Source of the DNA: Spirochaetota bacterium
Lineage (GTDB): Bacteria > Spirochaetota > UBA4802 > UBA5368
DNA: 64,000 nucleotides
NCBI GenBank assembly: GCA_035477215.1
Contig: DATIKU010000058.1
Coordinates: 124,001 to 188,000 of the forward strand
Reading direction: 5' to 3'
Shown here: piece after piece, positions 22,048 through 62,558 of the stretch
Layout: each line of letters starts with the position of its first letter
How positions within the stretch are numbered: position 1 is the first letter of the stretch
Notes under the pieces: generated by a model
What the model saw: only the letters and a program-made list of their open reading frames with translations
What the model was told of the DNA's origin: nothing
Database searches by the model: none
Translations under genes and position numbers: made by a program

Positions 22048-22494
22048 TTACAGTTTGACCAGCTCGATATACAGCGAGCCGAGCTCGTTTTCGGTATCCA
22101 GATACGCCGTCCCTATCCCATCGGGATGAGCCGTTTTTTGCACGACTTTACCGCCCCTGTCGGTCCAATCCTTCACTTCCTTGTTGAGATCGTCGACATA
22201 GATGCCGAGGTGGTGTATGCCGGGGCCGTGCCTGTCGAGAAACTCCTTCACGATATGCTCGCCCTGCACTATCTGCATGAGTTCAAGATCGATATTGCCA
22301 ACACGCGCCAGGCCGATTTTAGTGATAAAATTTACTTCTTTCCCGCGGAGGTGTGCCTTCGCCTCCGGCATCTGGAAAGTGATAAATTTGATCCCGAAAC
22401 ATTCTTCCATGAATTTGGCGGCCTTTTCAACATCATGAACGACCACCCCCACCTGATTTACCTGAGGAATATTGCACATAACACTTTCCGACAT
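22048..22494 (-). CDS. VOC-family protein (methylmalonyl-CoA epimerase/glyoxalase-like)
   Basis: Single vicinal-oxygen-chelate protein of 148 residues with paired beta-alpha-beta-beta-beta modules. QVNQVGVVVHDVEKAAKFM begins module one and GPGIHHLGIYVDDLNKEV module two, with metal-ligand candidates His (IHHLG) and Glu (IDLELMQ, LYIELVK). This resembles methylmalonyl-CoA epimerase and many uncharacterised glyoxalase-like enzymes. GGAGG lies 5 bases before the ATG at 22492-22494. It is 69 bases downstream of the SDR gene, with a small hairpin between, and is probably co-transcribed from the operator-bearing promoter at 23494-23532. The exact substrate is not clear. Confidence 0.82.
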   Translation of the reverse strand: MSESVMCNIPQVNQVGVVVHDVEKAAKFMEECFGIKFITFQMPEAKAHLRGKEVNFITKIGLARVGNIDLELMQIVQGEHIVKEFLDRHGPGIHHLGIYVDDLNKEVKDWTDRGGKVVQKTAHPDGIGTAYLDTENELGSLYIELVKL

Positions 22495-22563: not shown

Positions 22564-23397
22564 TCACAGCTCCATAAGCTGACCGCCGCAGAGATTGACC
22601 GCCTGTCCGGTGATATAACGCGATTCGTCGGAGGCCAGAAACGCGACGAGTTTTGCAGCGTCTTCGATTTCGCCAATAAAACCGAGCGGAATCTCCCTCG
22701 CCATTTCCTCTTTGCGCTCCTCGAACGTATTGCCGTAAAACTGCGATTCAAGCTCGAGCTGCCATTTCAACAGATCCGTATAGACTTGCCCCGGACAAAT
22801 GGCGTTTACGCGGATTCCAAGCCCGCCCATCTCTTTCGCCATCACTTTTGTGAACATTATCACCCCGGCCTTCGCGCAGGCATATGCGCCGTTGAAAAGG
22901 GGCGGGAATTTCCCTGCGCGTGAGGCGGTGTTTACGATGGCCCCTGGTCTTCCGGTCATCAGCGGCAGGACCGCTTTGGTGACCCTGTAAGTTCCGTTCA
23001 GGTTGACATCTATCGTTTTAAGCCACTGCGTTTCGTCGTAATTGTTAAGTGTATTGGGCACGCCGAATGCCGCACCGGCGTTGTTGCACAGTATATCGAC
23101 GTGAGCGAACTCCTTTTTTATCGAGTCGATCATGGCGTTTACCGATTCGGTGCCGCAGACGTCGACGGGAACCGCAAGAGTTTTAACGGAGTATTCTTTT
23201 GTCAGCTCCTCGCATATGTCCTTCATTTCATCGGCGGGAGCGGTTTTAACGGCGCTGTCCTTATCCTGAGTGCCGAGATCGGCGATGATGATATGTGCGC
23301 CGCACGACGCCATCTTTCGGGCTATGGCATATCCCATACCGGTGCGCTTACCGGCACCGGTAATGAGGGCCGTCTTACCTTTCAGATCCTTATACAT
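22564..23397 (-). CDS. Short-chain dehydrogenase/reductase
   Basis: Classical NAD(P)-dependent SDR of 277 residues. Cofactor motif TALITGAGKRTGMGYAIA, LCNNAGAAFG, the catalytic serine region IVNTASRAGK, and YACAKAGV with the catalytic Tyr and Lys; GLGIRVNAICPGQVYTDL follows. C-terminal SRYITGQAVNLCGGQ is typical of 3-oxoacyl-reductase or diacetyl-reductase-like members. The frame is open from 23415, but the ATG at 23395-23397 has GGAGG 11 bases ahead and begins at the usual MYKDLKGK position. It is first in an SDR-VOC pair. The promoter region carries the same tandem inverted repeats as the dsrAB promoter. The substrate cannot be read from sequence. Confidence 0.9.
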   Translation of the reverse strand: MYKDLKGKTALITGAGKRTGMGYAIARKMASCGAHIIIADLGTQDKDSAVKTAPADEMKDICEELTKEYSVKTLAVPVDVCGTESVNAMIDSIKKEFAHVDILCNNAGAAFGVPNTLNNYDETQWLKTIDVNLNGTYRVTKAVLPLMTGRPGAIVNTASRAGKFPPLFNGAYACAKAGVIMFTKVMAKEMGGLGIRVNAICPGQVYTDLLKWQLELESQFYGNTFEERKEEMAREIPLGFIGEIEDAAKLVAFLASDESRYITGQAVNLCGGQLMEL

Positions 23398-23493
23398 GGT
23401 GAATAATACCTCCATCCTGTTTTAAATGAGATGTTACCATGCCGTACAAACGCCTCAATTACCGGGTGCTTTCTCTATGCTTCAACTTCAAGA

Positions 23494-23532
23494 ATGAATA
23501 TGGTTCATATTATTAACCATGTTCATTGTCAA
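23494..23532 (-). promoter_or_regulatory. Promoter with tandem ATGAA-N5-TTCAT operators, SDR-VOC pair
   Basis: Minus-strand TTGACA (23532-23527), 17-base spacer and TATGAA (23509-23504). Two 15-base elements 18 bp apart overlap the spacer and -10: 23494-23508 (perfect ATGAA-N5-TTCAT, identical to 56513-56527) and 23512-23526 (one half imperfect). The overlap suggests a repressor; no binding protein is known. Confidence 0.6.
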
Positions 23533-23645: not shown

Positions 23646-24614
23646 TTACATGCACACAACCCGGTTGCGACCCTCTTCCTTCGCACGGTACAATGCTGTA
23701 TCGGCCTTTTTCTTAAGGGAATCGATATCGACCGCACTCTCGGGGAATGACGCCAGCCCCTGGCTGATGGTAACCCTTTTTATTGCTCCGTCAAATCTCG
23801 CGAGCGTATCGAGACGCTCGACATCGGTCCGTATCGCATCACACACCGCGAGAGCGCTCTCCTTTCCGGCGCCAGGCAGCAGGAACGTAAATTCATCACC
23901 CCCGTAGCGCGCGATTATGTTTTTATCGCGCAGGCGGCGCTTGAACACCTCGACCACATCGCGAATTACCCCGTCGCCCGTTTCGTGACCGTAAAGCTCA
24001 TTGATCTGCCTGAAGTAATCGAGGTCGACCATCACCAGCACGAGCGGCTCGCCGTTTTTTCTGGATTCTTCAACGTATTGGTGCAGCGAATCGTCGAGAA
24101 ACCGTCTGTTATAGACCCCCGTCATCTCATCCGTTATCGCCCTTTTACGGGCTTTGTCTCCCCACTGCACCATATCGAAAAGGAAATCACCGGTGTTTCT
24201 CAGCCTTTGGGTCGTTATGTTCAGCATCCGGTACATTATCTTCTGGGCCGTTTCCGGATGGTCTTCAATTATCTTGAATATGGAACGCTGATGGAGTCTG
24301 AAGAGAACGCTGTCCTCACGCGCGGTGCAGGTTGCCGAGCGTGGAGCCTCTTCGAAAATGCACATTTCCCCGAAAAAGTCCCCGCTTTTGAACACCGCGA
24401 TTTCCCTGCTTTTGCCGTCGGGAAGAGAAATTGATGTCGCCACACTTCCATCCCTCACGATATACAGTTCTTTTCCCTCATCACCCTGCCGGAAAAGCAC
24501 GCTCTCCCCCACGACTTTAACCTCCTCGAGATAATCATGGACTTCGCGTATCTCACCCTCTTTCAGCAGAGAGAATATTTCTATTGAATTTAAAAAACCA
24601 TATATAGAACTCAT
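23646..24614 (-). CDS. Cyclic-nucleotide-binding diguanylate cyclase
   Basis: Cytoplasmic protein of 322 residues: an N-terminal cNMP-binding domain (about 15-135; FGEMCIFEEAPRSATCTA is the phosphate-binding cassette) and a C-terminal GGDEF domain (about 160-320). The active site is RYGGDEF, with DEMTGVYNRRFLD and DYFRQINELYGHETGD typical of active cyclases. An autoinhibitory I-site (RxxD) is not clear in the usual place just before GGDEF. It likely makes c-di-GMP in response to a cyclic nucleotide. It lies 30 bases downstream of a paralogue with the same domain order, probably in one operon. Confidence 0.9.
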   Translation of the reverse strand: MSSIYGFLNSIEIFSLLKEGEIREVHDYLEEVKVVGESVLFRQGDEGKELYIVRDGSVATSISLPDGKSREIAVFKSGDFFGEMCIFEEAPRSATCTAREDSVLFRLHQRSIFKIIEDHPETAQKIMYRMLNITTQRLRNTGDFLFDMVQWGDKARKRAITDEMTGVYNRRFLDDSLHQYVEESRKNGEPLVLVMVDLDYFRQINELYGHETGDGVIRDVVEVFKRRLRDKNIIARYGGDEFTFLLPGAGKESALAVCDAIRTDVERLDTLARFDGAIKRVTISQGLASFPESAVDIDSLKKKADTALYRAKEEGRNRVVCM

Positions 24615-24644
24615 TGTGCTTATATTCTCCAGTCAGTCCGCGGT

Positions 24645-25598
24645 TCAGGTCGTCCTTGTGGCGTTTCCGCCTGAATTTCGCGCCTCCAGCATTTTTTCGA
24701 ACGCGGTACGCACTGAATCAGCGCACCCGCAATGATCGGGACACAGGGCGATTCCTACACTGGCGGTCATTCTGAAATCCGCATCGCCCGTTACGCCTGC
24801 CGCATCGACCGACCTGAAGGCTTCGTGCAGTCTCCCGGCCAATTCCACCGCAATCCCGGCATCCGGGAGAACGCAAAGAAACTCGTCGCCACGATATCGG
24901 ATACCGATATTTTTAAAGCCGATGGCTCCGCTGAATGCCTGCGCAAGCATTTTCAATACCCTGTCGCCCGCCCCGTGTCCGTAGTTGTCGTTGATCTCCT
25001 TGAAATTGTCCGGCTTAATAACGATAACCGTAAACGCTCCTTCTCCACGATTCAACATGGGCATGACCTCTTCATCGAGGTATGACCTGTTGTAGAGTCC
25101 CGTAAGCTTGTCGTAATGTATCTGCTTCCTGAGATCCTCGACCCATCTTGTCTTCTCCGAGATGAGGCTGTTTGTGTAGCGTATCCTTCCCGCAACAGTG
25201 GCAAGGAACCGGTGCAGGATACGCGCGGCCATCTCGCCGTGACGTAAGAGCAACTCGCTGAACCTGGTTCCCGCCGATGGAAAACGCAGTATGACCGAGT
25301 CCTTCTCGGCAATCGCGGTTGCTGTCCTCTGACTATTCTCGAAAAGATCAAATTCGCCGAACGTTTCGCCCTCAATAAACGTGGCTATACATGTGGACTC
25401 GCCTTCGGCATCCCTGTTTATCGATATCTCACCCGATTGCACGACAAACAACGCATCCGCAGAGTCGGATTCCCGGAATACAACGCTGCCTGCCGCAAGG
25501 TTTGCGTATTCGCTGTATCGCGCGATGACGCCGAGTTCGCTCTCCTTTAATTTTGAAAAGAGGCTCACGTTCTTCAGCATTTCGAGCCGGTCATCCAT
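24645..25598 (-). CDS. Cyclic-nucleotide-binding GGDEF protein with RGDEF active site
   Basis: Paralogue of the downstream gene with the same order: cNMP-binding domain (about 10-130; [18 protein letters not shown] cassette) and GGDEF domain (about 165-310). Active-site motif reads RYRGDEF, so the first glycine is Arg. [15 protein letters not shown] and [16 protein letters not shown] are intact. Variation at that first position is tolerated in some cyclases, so activity is uncertain rather than excluded. A G-rich run with GGTGG precedes the ATG at 25596-25598. The pair may form a homo- or heterodimeric cyclase tied to cAMP or cGMP. Confidence 0.87.
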
Positions 25599-55664: not shown

Positions 55665-56252
55665 TTACTTCTTTTTATTAATTTCGCCCCTTCCCTTAAG
55701 AACGGCGCCTATATTCCAGGCCTGGCCTACGTAATCGCCAACCCTGTAATAGGCCCGTTCATGCATCGCGAAGAGGAGCGGATCGATTTTTTTAACATCG
55801 AGCCGGCCTTCGGTAAGATAGCGGTTTTCAGTATATACCGAAACGATCTCCGCTATATACGCGATATCGACATCAAAATCAATAGTCTGTACCAGGCGGC
55901 ATTCGAGGTTAAGCGGGCATTCCTCAATCATCGGAGCCGTCTGAAGCTTCCCGTAAAAACTAACAAATACGGCCGATTTATCGACCTCGGCCCCGGATAC
56001 CAGTCCGCAATAATCCGTTTTTACGGCCATTTCCGCTGACGGGATGTTTACGCTGAATGTCTTGTTTTCTATTATGCCGATATTGGTGTAATGAGAGTGG
56101 TTGATTGAAACGGAAATTATTGGAGGGTGCGCATTCATTATGCCGCAGAACGCTACAACCAGATAATTCGGCCTTCCCTCGACGTTCGCCCCCACGAGCG
56201 TCGCCGGCATGGGATATAGGAAGGAACGGGCGTCCAGTTCATGCTTTTTCAC
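55665..56252 (-). CDS. Flavin reductase-like FMN-binding protein
   Basis: 195 residues, single FMN-binding split barrel. PMPATLVGANVEGRPNYLVVAFCGIMN and PPIISVSINHSHYTNIGI are the standard beginning, with TFSVNIPSAEMAVKTDYCGLVSG and LECRLVQTIDFDVDIAYIAEIV following. Such proteins reduce FMN or carry it in anaerobic electron transfer. It begins with GTG, and no strong ribosome-binding site is seen. It is divergent from dsrA across 617 bases, and tandem operators lie between the two, so co-regulation is possible though not shown. Confidence 0.88.
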   Translation of the reverse strand: MKKHELDARSFLYPMPATLVGANVEGRPNYLVVAFCGIMNAHPPIISVSINHSHYTNIGIIENKTFSVNIPSAEMAVKTDYCGLVSGAEVDKSAVFVSFYGKLQTAPMIEECPLNLECRLVQTIDFDVDIAYIAEIVSVYTENRYLTEGRLDVKKIDPLLFAMHERAYYRVGDYVGQAWNIGAVLKGRGEINKKK

Positions 56253-56465: not shown

Positions 56466-56527
56466 GATATTTATCTTGACAAATTCGAATAGCGATGAAT
56501 TATGCTCATAATATGAATATGGTTCAT
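56466..56527 (+). promoter_or_regulatory. dsrAB promoter with tandem ATGAA-N5-TTCAT operators
   Basis: TTGACA at 56476-56481 with a weak -10 candidate TATGCT (56501-56506, 19-base spacer); CATAAT at 56507 is an alternative. The 16 bases ending in the -35 (56466-56481) match the spoVG promoter exactly. Two inverted repeats lie 18 bp apart on the -10 side: 56495-56509 (one half imperfect) and 56513-56527 (perfect). Position suggests repression. Confidence 0.62.
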
Positions 56528-56710
56528 TTAGCAGGGTTTGCCATTTGAAATTCTTTAATCGGCATATTTGTGCAGCATACCGTGTTTTGTGCAACCGGCG
56601 ATTTTCCCTGCTGCAGCATGGTTGCCGCCCTGAAGGGTTTTCTGGATTACAATTGCATAAAAACAACTATGCGATATGATTTACCGGAATATTTGCGATA
56701 CGAAGACATT

Positions 56711-56769
56711 AGAGTTGTTGCAGAGCGCGGGAAACGAGGCCGGCTATCTCGGAAATTTGCAACGTGTCT
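56711..56769 (+). repeat. Intergenic palindromic repeat, medium copy in the dsrA leader
   Basis: Begins AGAGTTGTTGC (11 bases identical to the copy at 58038) and ends ATTTGCAACGTGTCT, with a shortened centre. It lies about 100 bases before the dsrA start and would form a stem-loop in the leader RNA. Confidence 0.6.
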
Positions 56770-56869
56770 TTTAATAAACGTGCAATCCGTATTCTTTTCT
56801 CTTGAATTAGTATTTATCGGGCGTTTGTCTTATAACGAATAAATAGCAATCCGAAAAAGGAGGCAAAGA

Positions 56870-58033
56870 ATGCCAAGCAATACTCCTTTACTCGATGAAC
56901 TTGAGAAGGGCCCGTGGCCGAGTTTCGTGAAAGAAATGAAGCGGTCGGCCGGCAAAAACGCCAAAGCGAAGGATCTGCTCGGTGTCGTCGAACAATCCTA
57001 TAAGGATAAAATCACCCACTGGAAACACGGTGGTATCGTCGGTGTAACCGGCTACGGGGGAGGCGTTATCGGTCGTTATTCAGATCTCCCCGAAAATTTT
57101 CCAAACGCCGAACAATTCCACACCATCCGGGTCAACCATCCGTCCGGCTGGTTCTACACAACCAAAGCCCTGCGCACCATCTGCGATATCTGGGAAAAAC
57201 ACGGCAGCGGCCTCACGAACATGCACGGCGCCACCGGGGACATCATTCTGCTCGGAACGGATACTGACCAGATCCAGCCCGCGTTTAATACGCTTTCAGA
57301 GAACGGCTTCGATCTGGGCGGCTCCGGGTCGGCCCTTCGGACCCCCAGCGGGTGCGTCGGACCGGCCCGCTGCGAATGGGCGTGCTTCGACAGCCTCGAT
57401 CTTATCTATGATTTAACACAGACATTCCAGGACGAGCTTCATCGTCCCCGCTGGCCGTACAAGTTTAAAATCAAGGCGTCTGCCTGTCCCAACGACTGCG
57501 TCGCCGCGATCGCGCGCGCCGATTTCACCATCATCGGCACATGGCGTGACAGCCTCAGGATCGACCAGTCGGCGGTAGGGGAATACGCGGCCAAGGGTCT
57601 TGACATCAAGAACCTGATAGCCGGCAAATGCCCGAGCCAGGCCCTCGATTACGACGAGAAAAACCGGAAGCTTACTCTCAAACCCGAGGACTGCGTCCGC
57701 TGCATGCACTGCATCAGCAAGATGACCAGGGCTATCCGTCCCGGAAAGGAAACCGGCGCAACGATACTGATAGGCGGAAAAGCGCCCATCCTCAGAGGCG
57801 CCTTCCTTTCCTGGGTGCTGGTCCCGTTTATCAAGGTAGATCCGCCCTATGCCGAGATCAAGCAACTCCTTGAGAAGATATGGGACTGGTGGGATGAGAA
57901 TGGTCGGAACCGGGAGCGGATCGCGGAGACGATCAGCCGGCTCGGCCTTAAGGATTTTCTAAAAGCGATTGATCTCAGGCCAATTCCGCAGATGGTCTAC
58001 CATCCGCGCTCGAATCCCTTCGTTTTCTTTTAA
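56870..58033 (+). CDS. dsrA: Dissimilatory sulfite reductase alpha subunit
   Basis: Catalytic alpha subunit of the siroheme-[4Fe4S] sulfite reductase that makes sulfide (or DsrC trisulfide) with DsrB in the cytoplasm. Cysteines of the siroheme-cluster motif are C162 and C168 ([11 protein letters not shown]) and C206 and C210 (ACPNDC). A ferredoxin-like insert has C254 (GKCPSQAL) and C275, C278 and C281 (CVRCMHC). [34 protein letters not shown] is highly typical. At 387 residues it is a bit shorter than usual alpha subunits (about 420-440). AAGGAGG lies 6-7 bases before the ATG at 56870. dsrB and dsrD follow on the same strand. No frameshift is seen, and the siroheme and cluster residues are intact. 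Confidence 0.97.
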
Positions 58034-58146: not shown

Positions 58147-59211
58147 ATGCCAAGAACGGATATCGGCCCGCCGGATTATAAAACGATGCTTCCCGAAACC
58201 ATCGTGAACAATTACGGCAAATGGAAATATCATGAAATCCTCAAACCCGGTGTTATGAAACACGTCAGCGAGACCGGTGGCGAACTATTCACCGTGCGAG
58301 CGGGCTCGCCCCGTCTCGTCAGCATAGATTTCATCCGGGACGTCTGCGACGTCGCCGATAAATATTGCGACGGCCATCTTCGTTTCACCAGCCGGTTCAA
58401 CATCGAGCTGATGACCCCTGATAAGGAAAACGTTGATGGAATAATCTCTGATTTAAATAAACTCGGCCTTCCCGTGGGCGGTCTGGGCGACTGCATCTCG
58501 AATATCGTTCATACCCAGGGCTGGATTCACTGTCACAGCGCGGCAACGGACGCATCAGGACTCGTTAAATCGATCATGGACGAACTATACGAATACTTTA
58601 CGGAATTCAGGCTGCACGCCAAGCTGAGGATAGCCGTCGCGTGCTGCATCAATATGTGCGGCGCGGTCCACTGTTCCGATCTTGCGGTTGTGGGCATCCA
58701 TACAAAACCGCCCAAGGTCAACCACGAAAAACTGGCCTCTACATGCGAAATACCGTCGGTTATCGCGTCCTGTCCCACCGGCGCCATTCGCCGCCATTCA
58801 GACAAGAATATAAACAGCGTCGAGGTAAAAAATGAGCGGTGCATGTATTGTGGAAACTGTTACACCGTTTGTCCATCGATGCCGCTTTCAGACCCCGATG
58901 GAGACGGCCTGGCCATCTATGTGGGCGGGAAGGTCTCCAATATGCGGAAACCACCCATGTTTTCCAGGCTTGCGGTTCCTTTCATTCCGAACAATCCGCC
59001 CCGGTGGCCGGAAGTTACCGACATTCTCAAGAAGATCGTCGAGATCTACGCCAGGGATTCAAAGAAATACGAGCGCCTTGGCGAATGGATTCAGCGTATA
59101 GGATGGGAACGTTTCTTTTCGTTGACGAGCATACCATTCACCGAACAGCATATTGATGACTTTACTCACGCAACTGAAACGTATAGGGCCACAACGCAGT
59201 TCAAGTGGTAA
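58147..59211 (+). CDS. dsrB: Dissimilatory sulfite reductase beta subunit
   Basis: Beta subunit of the DsrA2B2 enzyme, binding siroheme and a [4Fe4S] cluster. [19 protein letters not shown] begins as usual; the cluster-binding cysteines lie in [11 protein letters not shown] (residues 166-176) and the ferredoxin insert has C232, C235, C238 and C242 ([12 protein letters not shown]). [17 protein letters not shown] and [14 protein letters not shown] are typical. At 354 residues it is slightly short relative to common beta subunits (about 365-385). GGAGG lies 7-8 bases before the ATG at 58147. It follows dsrA after a hairpin-forming repeat and precedes dsrD by 16 bases. Confidence 0.97.
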
Positions 59212-59227: not shown

Positions 59228-59428
59228 ATGAGCGAACCGGCCAGTGCCGAGCTGAAGCAAAAAATCATCGACTATTTAAAGACCGAAGGGAAGGCGAAGA
59301 ATCGTGACGTCGCCAAGGCCCTTGGAGAAGAAAAAAAGCTCGTAGATAAGGCGATCGGCGAACTTGGCAACGAGGGCAGGCTTGAATACCTTTATCTTGA
59401 CGGTTCATACGTCAAACTGAAGGAATAG
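59228..59428 (+). CDS. dsrD: DsrD, winged-helix allosteric activator of DsrAB
   Basis: Small winged-helix protein of 66 residues. The sequence LKQKIIDYLKTEGKAKNRDVAKALGEEKKLVDKAIGELGNEGRLEYLYLDGSYVKLK matches the DsrD fold (three helices and a wing). DsrD is found in organisms that use DsrAB reductively and has been shown to activate DsrAB. GGAGGAG lies just before the ATG at 59228; the longer frame from 59153 overlaps dsrB and is not used. Its presence suggests sulfite reduction rather than sulfur oxidation. Slightly shorter than the Desulfovibrio protein (about 78). Confidence 0.93.
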   Translation: MSEPASAELKQKIIDYLKTEGKAKNRDVAKALGEEKKLVDKAIGELGNEGRLEYLYLDGSYVKLKE

Positions 59429-59511: not shown

Positions 59512-60969
59512 TCAAGAACTCCCTATTATACGTGCAGAGGCGTGTTCGACGAGTTTTGCGGGCCATATAACGTTTTCGCTCAGCGCATGAGTATGGCAGA
59601 ATGTTGCCATCGTATTACGATACACAGCGCCATCCCTTTGATCGATAATGCCGGTACCTCGCTTCATCGCGAATACGGTTGGAAGACCAGTCAGATCTTT
59701 CGGGTTGACTATCCGCGCGTATCGGAACTCATGTCCCTTAACGACGGCCCCGGTCGTGTAAAAAGGATTATCCCCATCCACACAGAAAATAGTATATCCA
59801 TGACCCTGTGGCGAACGCGCGATTTCAAATATCATCGGGAACACGCCTGTCATTGGATATTGCTCTCCATCGATTACTATAGAAGCCGAAAGGTATATCA
59901 GCCCGCCGCATTCAGCGTAGACCGGAAGTCCCTCGTTAATACGCTCGCGGAGTGAGGCATTGAACTCGCAGTTGGAGGCAATACGAAAGGCATGCGTTTC
60001 GGGGAAGCCCCCTCCAATATAGAGAGCGTCAACATCCGGAAAAATTCCACCGTTCAGCGGGCTGATCTGAATTATTTCGCCTCCGGCCCGAACCAGCGCC
60101 TCGATGTTTTCCCTGTAGTAGAAATTGAATGCCGAATCGCGCATCACTCCTATGCGGGGTCGTGCCGAAGAACATTGCTTTTTTTCTTCAGTCATAATCA
60201 CCGGGCTGAAAGCGTCAACGGCGATATCGCGCGAAACGCCGTTTTCAGATGCCATTTCGGCACCCGAAAGGGCGATAATCTTCTCCAGATCTATAGCGCG
60301 TTCCATTATATCACCGAGCTCATCGACAAGCTCGATTGGACCTCCGTGCTCGTAAACAGGTACCAGCCCGAGGTGGCGTTCCTGAGCACGGATTGCCGGC
60401 ATTCTCGGTACCGATCCAAGTACCGGCAAGCCGGTATACTTTTCGACCGCCTCGGTGATCAGCGCCCGATGCCTCTCCCCGGCCACGTTATTCAGGATTA
60501 CACCGCTCAAGCGAAGCTCCGGATCGAACATCTTTACCCCCAGTACGAGCGCGGCGACCGTTCTGCTTGTCTTGGTGCATTCAATGACGAGCACCACCGG
60601 AATATTCAGCGCCTTGGTCAGTTCGGCGAAGCTGTGCGTTCCCTGGACATCGTATCCGTCGAAAAGGCCCCTGTTTCCTTCCATGATTGAAAGATCGGCA
60701 TCACAATTTGTATCAAGGAAAATGCTCCTTGTCGTTTCATCATCCATCAGGAATGTATCGAGATTATGGCAGTTCCGGCCTGCCGAGAGAGATAGCCATG
60801 CCGGATCGATATAATCAGGACCTTTTTTGAATGGCGCTACGGTATAACCCCTTCGGCGCAGCGCCCTGATCAGACCGATTGTAACGATTGTCTTTCCCAT
60901 TCCACCGCGCACTCCCGCGATGGCGATCGCATTTCGCGTTGCAGAATCTTTCATGAGGGCTGTTTTCAT
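59512..60969 (-). CDS. dsrN: DsrN/CbiA-type a,c-diamide synthase
   Basis: Glutamine-dependent amidotransferase of 485 residues in the cobyrinic-acid a,c-diamide synthase family. N-terminal P-loop AIAGVRGGMGKTIVTIGLIRAL, FKKGPDYIDPAWLSLSAGR, and C-terminal glutaminase YAECGGLIYL with the catalytic Cys. In the dsr cluster DsrN is thought to amidate siroheme for the sulfite reductase. Cobalamin synthesis is the other family role, but no other cob genes are nearby. It is convergent with dsrABD and downstream of dsrC (gap 104 bases with a hairpin). The start has no strong ribosome-binding site; ATG at 60954 is an alternative. Confidence 0.87.
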   Translation of the reverse strand: MKTALMKDSATRNAIAIAGVRGGMGKTIVTIGLIRALRRRGYTVAPFKKGPDYIDPAWLSLSAGRNCHNLDTFLMDDETTRSIFLDTNCDADLSIMEGNRGLFDGYDVQGTHSFAELTKALNIPVVLVIECTKTSRTVAALVLGVKMFDPELRLSGVILNNVAGERHRALITEAVEKYTGLPVLGSVPRMPAIRAQERHLGLVPVYEHGGPIELVDELGDIMERAIDLEKIIALSGAEMASENGVSRDIAVDAFSPVIMTEEKKQCSSARPRIGVMRDSAFNFYYRENIEALVRAGGEIIQISPLNGGIFPDVDALYIGGGFPETHAFRIASNCEFNASLRERINEGLPVYAECGGLIYLSASIVIDGEQYPMTGVFPMIFEIARSPQGHGYTIFCVDGDNPFYTTGAVVKGHEFRYARIVNPKDLTGLPTVFAMKRGTGIIDQRDGAVYRNTMATFCHTHALSENVIWPAKLVEHASARIIGSS

Positions 60970-61073: not shown

Positions 61074-61391
61074 TCACACACAGCCGGTCGGCTTTGGCAG
61101 TCCGGCCCATTTACATGCCGAGTTCGCGGGCCCCTGTGGGAAAAGCTCATACATCTCTTTAAGATTGACGCCCGTCTCCTTGGTGAGCTTTCTTACCATG
61201 GGCGCTATGCCATTCTGCTTGAAATAATCTCTCAGATAATTCATAACCTTCCAGTGGGTCTCGCTTAATTCGTTGATTCCCTCCTTCTCCGCCATGCCCC
61301 TGGCGACGTCTTCCGTCCATTTATCCGGCTCCTGAAGAAAGCCGTCCTCATCAACGTCATATGAATTCCCATGCAAATTGATGCTCGCCAT
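61074..61391 (-). CDS. dsrC: DsrC, sulfur-carrier partner of DsrAB
   Basis: Small thiol carrier of 105 residues that receives sulfite-derived sulfur from DsrAB and forms a trisulfide between two C-terminal cysteines. Both are present, C93 and C104, in SACKWAGLPKPTGCV (Cx10C), distinguishing it from single-Cys TusE. EDGFLQEPDKWTEDVARGMAEKEGI and THWKVMNYLRDYFKQNG are typical. AAGGAGG lies 7 bases before the ATG at 61389-61391, a strong site. It is upstream of dsrN on the minus strand. Its promoter region holds an operator like that of dsrAB (61631-61663). Confidence 0.96.
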   Translation of the reverse strand: MASINLHGNSYDVDEDGFLQEPDKWTEDVARGMAEKEGINELSETHWKVMNYLRDYFKQNGIAPMVRKLTKETGVNLKEMYELFPQGPANSACKWAGLPKPTGCV

Positions 61392-61682
61392 CTTTTATCC
61401 TCCTTAATGAAAAATTAATAATCCCCCGCATCCGGCGATCGAAACATCGCCCGATGTACAACCCTCATAAAACATGCTTTCCAAACACAACCATCCTGTT
61501 TTATGCGGACACGGGGCCGCTATGACGAGGTTGTAATGTCGTAAATTAAACTAGTGTGAACTTCAATAAGTGTCAACTGAATTATCCTCCCTCAAAATAT
61601 TTTTTACATATTATTAGATTTATACACTTTATGAATTACGTTCATAATAAAAACACGATTCATTTTATTCTTGCCGGTTCCA
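61392..61682. other. Upstream region of dsrC, no gene
   Basis: 291 bases, AT-rich, with the operators at 61631-61663, a candidate promoter (minus TTGACA 61576-61571 and TAGTTT 61553-61548) and a small hairpin (61434-61451). No credible reading frame. Confidence 0.5.
61619..61663 (-). promoter_or_regulatory. Operators in the dsrC upstream region
   Basis: Perfect ATGAA-N5-TTCAT at 61631-61645 and a second half-site (TTCAT, 61659-61663) at the same 18-bp phase as at the dsrAB promoter. On the minus strand TATAAA (61624-61619) lies 6 bp beyond the operator with a poor -35, so it may be a second dsrC promoter. Confidence 0.5.
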
Positions 61683-61970: not shown

Positions 61971-62558
61971 TTATATATCCAATTTCAGTGTTCCAGACTC
62001 TTTTTCGATAACATAAACATCTTCCGCCGCGAACCTGTTGTCCAACAAGAGCCTGTATGCCTTTTCCGCCTCTTCCCTGCCGCTAAATCCAAGAACGACT
62101 CCGCAGTGGGCCGTAATGTCGGAAGGGACCGGCAATGCGACATGCTTTTTATTACCGTTCTCATCAAGCCATCGATCCGCTCTCAGGCCTTCAGGAATTG
62201 ACACAAATGTGATAAGGTATCGAATTCTTTTTACCGGTATTATCCCGAGAATGATTTTAATAAAATGCAGTTTAATCCCCAGCAGTATGAACGCCATGGT
62301 GGCCTTTATGCCTTCTTTCTTGAAACCGGCACCCTTCCCTATTACCGCAGTGTGAAAGTTTTTCTCGAGTTTATAATCGATGAAAGCGTTCCCGGTTTCA
62401 GCGCACCATGCTTCCAGTTCCTTCCTGAAACCTGCGTCGTCGAAAACCACCGTCACGGTGTCTCCTTCGGCCAGATGGTGCATTTTTCTCGAGACCATCG
62501 CAATCGGAATGGGACATGAATACCCCCGGGTATCGACCAGCTTTTCCAGGATTTGCAT
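61971..62558 (-). CDS. TusA-like protein fused to DUF3343-like domain
   Basis: 195 residues. The N-terminal 75 residues are a TusA/SirA fold with the active motif RGYSCPIPIAMVSRK (CPxP) and the end ETGNAF. A hydrophobic middle (about 85-110) connects to a C-terminal part (LITFVSIPEGLRADRWL, ITAHCGVVLGFSGREEAEKAYRLL) that looks like DUF3343, including its conserved Cys. TusA carries sulfur as persulfide; DUF3343 occurs with selenium (YedF) and sulfur genes. Position between pstS and dsrC suggests sulfur relay with DsrC, but selenium use is an alternative. Fusion of the two is unusual. Confidence 0.75.
   Translation of the reverse strand: MQILEKLVDTRGYSCPIPIAMVSRKMHHLAEGDTVTVVFDDAGFRKELEAWCAETGNAFIDYKLEKNFHTAVIGKGAGFKKEGIKATMAFILLGIKLHFIKIILGIIPVKRIRYLITFVSIPEGLRADRWLDENGNKKHVALPVPSDITAHCGVVLGFSGREEAEKAYRLLLDNRFAAEDVYVIEKESGTLKLDI

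Follow-up and report, generated by a model that had tools for sequence, protein, structure and literature searches.

Genes and promoter element of the dsr locus

The window (the whole stretch of DNA analysed, 64,000 nucleotides) belongs to a Spirochaetota MAG of 3.57 Mb in 62 contigs, which is 95% complete (G000), and carries a dsrAB cluster whose promoter is overlapped by two inverted repeats (Table 1). The dsrA and dsrB genes are followed by a small ORF that is dsrD-like in position and appearance only and, on the opposite strand, by a CobB/CbiA-type amidase gene and dsrC. The amidase gene also lies beside dsrAB and dsrC in relatives, as judged by synteny, and its product is probably a DsrN-like siroheme amidase. 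Adjoining dsrC is a gene (61971-62558) that combines a TusA domain and a Se/S-carrier-like domain (PF11823) in one protein, and a flavin-reductase-like gene (55665-56252) is divergent from dsrAB, a position kept in two relatives (L062, L063). The window also contains an SDR-VOC gene pair, in which the VOC assignment rests on the G043 gene in the equivalent place (L142:16259-16726), a match to Glyoxalase_4. At 23646-25598, two neighbouring genes each encode a cyclic-nucleotide-binding domain and a GGDEF domain.

An earlier note on this DNA had described a perfect and a one-off ATGAA-N5-TTCAT palindrome 18 bp apart upstream of dsrAB, and a check of the sequence returned exactly these coordinates: the right palindrome (ATGAATATGGTTCAT) is perfect and the left palindrome (ATGAATTATGCTCAT) is one base short of it. 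The interval claimed for the element, 56466-56527, does contain it, but its start takes in the -35 box, and the operator proper spans 56495-56527. Because a normal spacer from the TTGACA box places the -10 within the left palindrome, with the right palindrome over the transcript start, the two sites lie at or past the likely -10 of dsrAB, as had been proposed. From the operator to the start codon of dsrA there is a long gap of 342 bp (56528-56869), which has no Rfam match. Nothing in Rfam matched the dsr region as a whole, the long leaders of dsrAB and dsrC included, so a known riboswitch is unsupported.

The same pair with the 18-bp step, also reported before the SDR-VOC genes, is present there and directly abuts a TTGACA box, and the partial pair noted before dsrC corresponds to a weaker pair with a degenerate right half. 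At dsrC, 54-55 bp separate the operator from a downstream TTGACA-17-TAGTWT promoter conserved in three congeners, an arrangement that differs from that of most sites of the set.

Table 1. Features of the dsr and SDR-VOC regions and sites of the element at further loci. Plain positions refer to the window and those with an L number to separately numbered loci.
Feature	Position	Strand	Basis
VOC/glyoxalase-like protein, second gene of the SDR-VOC pair	22048..22494	-	Equivalent G043 gene
SDR oxidoreductase, operator target	22564..23415	-	Pfam
Tandem operator of SDR-VOC	23494..23526 (23494-23508 + 23512-23526)	.	Motif search
-35 box TTGACA of SDR-VOC, directly abutting the operator	23527..23532	-	Sequence
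-35 box TTGACA of the dsrAB promoter	56476..56481	+	Sequence; kept in three congeners amid divergent DNA; same operator-relative position at most other sites
Left operator palindrome ATGAATTATGCTCAT, covering the predicted -10	56495..56509	.	Sequence, motif search
Right operator palindrome ATGAATATGGTTCAT, about +1 to +20	56513..56527	.	Sequence, motif search
dsrA	56870..58033	+	NIR_SIR Pfam match; TIGR02064 over cut-off
dsrB	58147..59211	+	Pfam NIR_SIR + 4Fe-4S
dsrD-like small winged-helix ORF	59228..59428	+	ORF list; position and appearance only
CobB/CbiA-type amidase (DsrN-like, siroheme amidation)	59512..60969	-	Pfam; synteny
dsrC	61074..61391	-	Pfam DsrC
Predicted -10 of dsrC, TAGTTT, 17 bp from the -35	61548..61553	-	Alignment, three congeners
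-35 of dsrC, TTGACA	61571..61576	-	Kept in three congeners
Tandem operator upstream of dsrC, right half degenerate	61631..61663	.	Motif search; congener alignment
Tandem site: CoA-disulfide-reductase-like gene with rhodanese domain, then dsrM-like gene and dsrK	L028:8280		
Tandem site: quinone-oxidoreductase-like gene	L029:668		
Tandem site: xsc (sulfoacetaldehyde acetyltransferase, over cut-off), then ackA	L030:8391		
Tandem site: SDR and thiamine-diphosphate enzyme, 2-hydroxyacyl-CoA lyase/benzaldehyde lyase type	L031:2662		
Tandem site: TPR/OEP operon	L032:7730		
Tandem site: SDR and MFS transporter	L034:6972		
Tandem site: DUF819 transporter and divergent sodium:alanine symporter	L035:8530		
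Site with degenerate second palindrome: class-III aminotransferase	L036:8185		

Form and occurrence of the element

The refined element, ATGAAY-N3-RTTCAT-WWW-ATGAAY-N3-RTTCAT, is 33 bp long and carries 38 bits over 26 sites. Pattern searches across the whole genome, each with a reversed-pattern control, returned 13 tandem sites with at most three mismatches (none for the control) and 17 perfect single palindromes (again none for the control). Of these perfect palindromes, 14 are intergenic and three fall in long ORFs in a genome that is about 90% coding by crude calls, so the intergenic-versus-coding scan proposed earlier, when run genome-wide, did not find a motif scattered at random in coding DNA. 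Inside the window, the single motif with at most one mismatch is weakly enriched (seven matches against 2.6 expected, a count reached in five of 100 shuffles). At 24 loci of this genome and its relatives, which were picked for carrying sites, 18 bp was the sole spacing of GAAY-N3-RTTC palindromes found within 60 bp of a TGAAY-N3-RTTCA palindrome, and a variable-gap search with zero mismatches found three tandem sites, every one with the 18-bp step. Across 79 genomes, tandem matches with at most two mismatches were concentrated in close relatives, and control matches occurred in one genome only.

Conservation across genomes

Within the order, dsrA is present in ten genomes; several of the loci L062-L084 are apparently the same records as genomes of this set and were counted once among the ten. 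The element is present at the dsrA promoter in nine of them, bearing out the expected conservation upstream of dsrA in related genomes, as a tandem in G000, G001, G002, G006 and G043 and as one perfect palindrome in G005, G007, G017 and G029; in the tenth, G027, it is found at dsrC instead. The DNA upstream of dsrAB and dsrC has diverged among three congeners, in which the operator and the TTGACA box are retained as a conserved island. At the dsrA locus of G057, a negative control from another family that has dsrA without xsc over the cut-off and without a close TetR, no site was found.

The nearest dsrA genes are those of Spirochaetes MAGs, followed mostly by those of Deltaproteobacteria at 71-74% identity, which agrees with a published account of lateral dsrAB transfer in which Spirochaetota took part (PMC10591310). 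Syntrophorhabdus-like donors are rejected as the source from which the motif arrived along with dsr, since none of 74 non-spirochaete dsrA loci scored above 13, on a scale on which tandem sites mostly reach 28-43.

These data confirm the tandem element as a real, conserved and recurring control site. An origin of the palindromes by chance or as a dispersed repeat could appeal to the weak enrichment of the single motif within the window alone; the site counts against the empty control, the mostly intergenic positions, the single spacing throughout and the retention of the palindromes where their flanks diverged refute it, and its probability is practically nil.

Genes behind the element and their probable metabolism

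Beyond the window, the element stands before genes for sulfonate cleavage and sulfite reduction as well as transporters (Table 1). The dsrK gene at L028 scores 725 bits against a cut-off of 400, and both TIGR02064 (dsrA) and TIGR03457 (xsc) are over their cut-offs in G000. Other genera have the element upstream of their orthologues of xsc, SDR-TPP, CoA-disulfide reductase, aminotransferase, DUF819 and dsr. A sulfonate role of the TPR/OEP genes and the quinone oxidoreductase as targets is not obvious. Tandem elements also precede aldehyde:ferredoxin-oxidoreductase-like genes in the congeners G003 (L249:6977) and G002 (L250:6500), a further possible target.

Having dsrAB together with a gene for a desulfonating enzyme, the host is predicted to be an organosulfonate-respiring sulfite reducer. 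No aprA gene scored over the cut-off in 45 genomes including this one, so its sulfite probably comes from organosulfonates; assignment to the sulfate reducers is excluded on aprA as the marker searched. On a plain reading of the gene set, a sulfonate is converted to sulfoacetaldehyde, which Xsc cleaves to sulfite and acetyl phosphate, ATP is gained via AckA, and sulfite is reduced to sulfide via DsrAB, DsrC and DsrMK. The transporter and the aminotransferase point to an amino-sulfonate as the substrate. The class-III aminotransferase matched no taurine-specific family, and its identification as a taurine-pyruvate aminotransferase is unsupported. The SDR and the 2-hydroxyacyl-CoA-lyase-like thiamine enzyme (L031:2702-5371) form the pair most consistently linked to a TetR gene, also in genomes that lack dsr, and this pair is possibly a source of sulfoacetaldehyde.

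A candidate TetR regulator

The candidate regulator, TetR-A (own copy G000:C35:9333-9944), contains a TetR_N helix-turn-helix domain (PF00440, G000:C35:9384-9521, 51.6 bits against a cut-off of 24), which is also over the cut-off in the G043 orthologue. The orthologues are 205-229 aa long, and that of G043 matches TetR_C_33 as its C-terminal ligand-binding domain. In G000, G001, G004, G006, G017, G029 and G043, the TetR-A gene is located on the same contig as the operator-headed SDR-TPP module and downstream of it. In G005 and G017, which represent two genera, it has xsc on one side and the dsr genes on the other, all within about 20 kb. TetR-A or its close paralogue TetR-B was found in every one of the order's ten genomes with dsrA and in four of the 36 others (Fisher p = 2.5e-7, uncorrected for shared ancestry). 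One of these four, G004 (77% complete), has the TetR gene, xsc and tandem sites with dsrA undetected; the other three, G030, G035 and G037, have an SDR-TPP-type module or its neighbours and no dsrA or xsc over the cut-off. Tandem sites without a detected TetR-A or TetR-B occur in G003 (73% complete), and a site without a close TetR in G023 (76% complete).

In G037, the sequence TTGAACGTAGTTCAA-TAT-ACGAATATGGTTCAA before the SDR-TPP operon constitutes tandem GAAY-N3-RTTC palindromes 18 bp apart, and in G035 a single TTGAATACTATTCAA lies behind a TTGACA box. With dsrA not over the cut-off in either genome, these sites connect the palindrome with the TetR-SDR-TPP module apart from any dsr genes, and they suggest that dsr and xsc were recruited later. 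On contig C8 of the own genome (L248:9667-9717), three GAAY-N3-RTTC palindromes at 18-bp steps stand behind TTGACA, with a third regulator, TetR-C, and a GltS-like symporter nearby; this array is taken to represent a related operator family.

Proposed mode of action and alternatives

Most sites have a TTGACA box, perfect or nearly so, that precedes the first palindrome by 16-21 bp, and the predicted -10 then falls within the operator, which fits a repressor that excludes RNA polymerase. With dsrC as an exception, the sites have the form expected of TetR-family operators, namely short palindromes over the promoter. We consider it likely that the element is the double operator of a TetR-A repressor commanding a desulfonation and sulfite respiration gene set, where binding, repression and effector are inferred. 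In the proposed mechanism, two TetR-A dimers would occupy the two palindromes one 18-bp step apart, cover the -10 and the start site of the TTGACA promoter and keep RNA polymerase off, and the use of two dimers on two palindromes could make repression tighter or cooperative. The controlled set would comprise (i) uptake and probable transamination of an amino-sulfonate by the DUF819 transporter and the class-III aminotransferase, (ii) release of sulfite by Xsc with recovery of ATP by AckA, and (iii) reduction of sulfite by DsrAB, DsrC and DsrMK. An intermediate of sulfonate breakdown may release the repressor, by which desulfonation and sulfite respiration would be switched on together. Because the repressor gene apparently lies inside the operator-headed SDR/thiamine-lyase operon, TetR-A is predicted to be autoregulated, with the regulator gene near or in an operon headed by the operator as in local autoregulation of the TetR type.

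The repressor reading had been put forward in the earlier note; it fits where the operator covers the -10, as at most sites, and falters at dsrC, where the operator is too far upstream of the promoter for simple blocking. There, the operator might act through looping, through an unseen promoter or in some other role. The distance at dsrC would suit an activator or dual-use site, as would the predicted -10 boxes, often poor matches; at most sites, however, the overlap with the -10 and start behind a perfect TTGACA -35 is the geometry of a repressor, and the family of the candidate regulator mostly represses, which makes activation improbable. Sigma-54 and CRP/FNR sites were dropped in view of the perfect TTGACA -35 and the form of the motif.

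TetR-B has the same recognition helix, ELSVGTIYLYF, as TetR-A, so the operators are possibly common to both, and its gene lies behind the aminotransferase gene, itself headed by the operator, in G000 and G006; it may be a binder or co-user of the sites. That TetR-B mainly owns them, or that TetR-A, TetR-B and TetR-C, as paralogues whose recognition helices would be nearly identical, share or divide the tandem and single versions, is a serious contender, somewhat short of an even chance, to which the three phased palindromes beside the GltS-like gene and TetR-C lend further weight. Against it, TetR-A is the regulator tied to the SDR-TPP operon in different genera, and to dsr and xsc in two genomes, whereas TetR-B is beside the aminotransferase in G000 and G006 only. 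A regulator from outside the TetR family, with TetR-A connected to the element by neighbourhood alone, would accommodate the sites of G003 and G023; the close linkage and co-occurrence of TetR-A, together with the persistence of variant tandem sites at the TetR-linked operon of G037, which is without dsr and xsc, leave it only a small chance.

The evidence supports the earlier interpretation and enlarges it by a sulfonate-to-sulfite regulon, a spirochaete host and a candidate TetR regulator. If the TetR-A reading is correct, a named operator and regulator would explain when uncultured spirochaetes produce sulfide, and the spirochaete Dsr pathway would be predicted to serve sulfonate respiration, not sulfate reduction. 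The 33-bp element could also serve as a signature in the search for more members of the pathway, among them the SDR/thiamine-lyase pair, as yet uncharacterised, and the transporters. As to its origin, a tentative and rather doubtful proposal is that a single TetR regulator, ancestral to the small SDR/thiamine-lyase operon of this order, captured xsc and the laterally acquired dsr genes through copies of the tandem operator arising at each promoter, giving a dedicated sulfonate-respiration regulon in which the SDR/lyase pair would form an undescribed route from a C3 sulfonate to sulfoacetaldehyde.

Comparison with known systems

The earlier note knew of no described operator of this form for dsr genes, and text searches of the open-access literature yielded neither such an operator nor TetR control of dsr or xsc; a described dsrAB regulator tying sulfite reduction to sulfonate cleavage was likewise not found. 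A counterpart among predicted regulators of dissimilatory sulfur genes is HcpR of Desulfovibrio, a CRP/FNR-family protein for which comparative genomics predicted binding sites that overlap the -10 of both sat and apsAB, with dsrAB outside the predicted regulon according to the authors (PMC545781). HcpR differs in motif and in protein family from the element and candidate regulator described here; the element is not CRP/FNR-like in form. Respiration of taurine and isethionate by Bilophila and Taurinivorans also proceeds from organosulfonate to sulfite and then to sulfide (PMC8667426, PMC10507020). In comparison, the present host belongs to another phylum and has Xsc and AckA in one regulon with dsr; text searches of the open literature found no TetR/tandem-operator control for respiration of the Bilophila/Taurinivorans type.

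Among solved structures, the best relatives of TetR-A are 7w2o, an unnamed TetR regulator, and FadR/YsiA of Bacillus (PDB 1vi0, 3whb, 5gp9). The latter shares the TetR_N DNA-binding domain, with a match over residues 9-105, whereas the C-terminal half aligned weakly or not at all. The FadR operator likewise has ATGAA/TTCAT-like half-sites; FadR controls fatty-acid degradation in response to acyl-CoA, its half-site spacing differs and it is not known to have sulfur targets. Two dimers on one promoter element are known for QacR, a TetR-family protein. The same arrangement is described for CprB of this family (PMC4150764). Compared with QacR and CprB, the present element consists of two complete, separate 15-bp palindromes with a fixed 18-bp step, found again at a dozen promoters within a single metabolic programme. 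The mechanism thus appears to be of a known kind, and the regulon, its targets and the spirochaete setting appear to be new.
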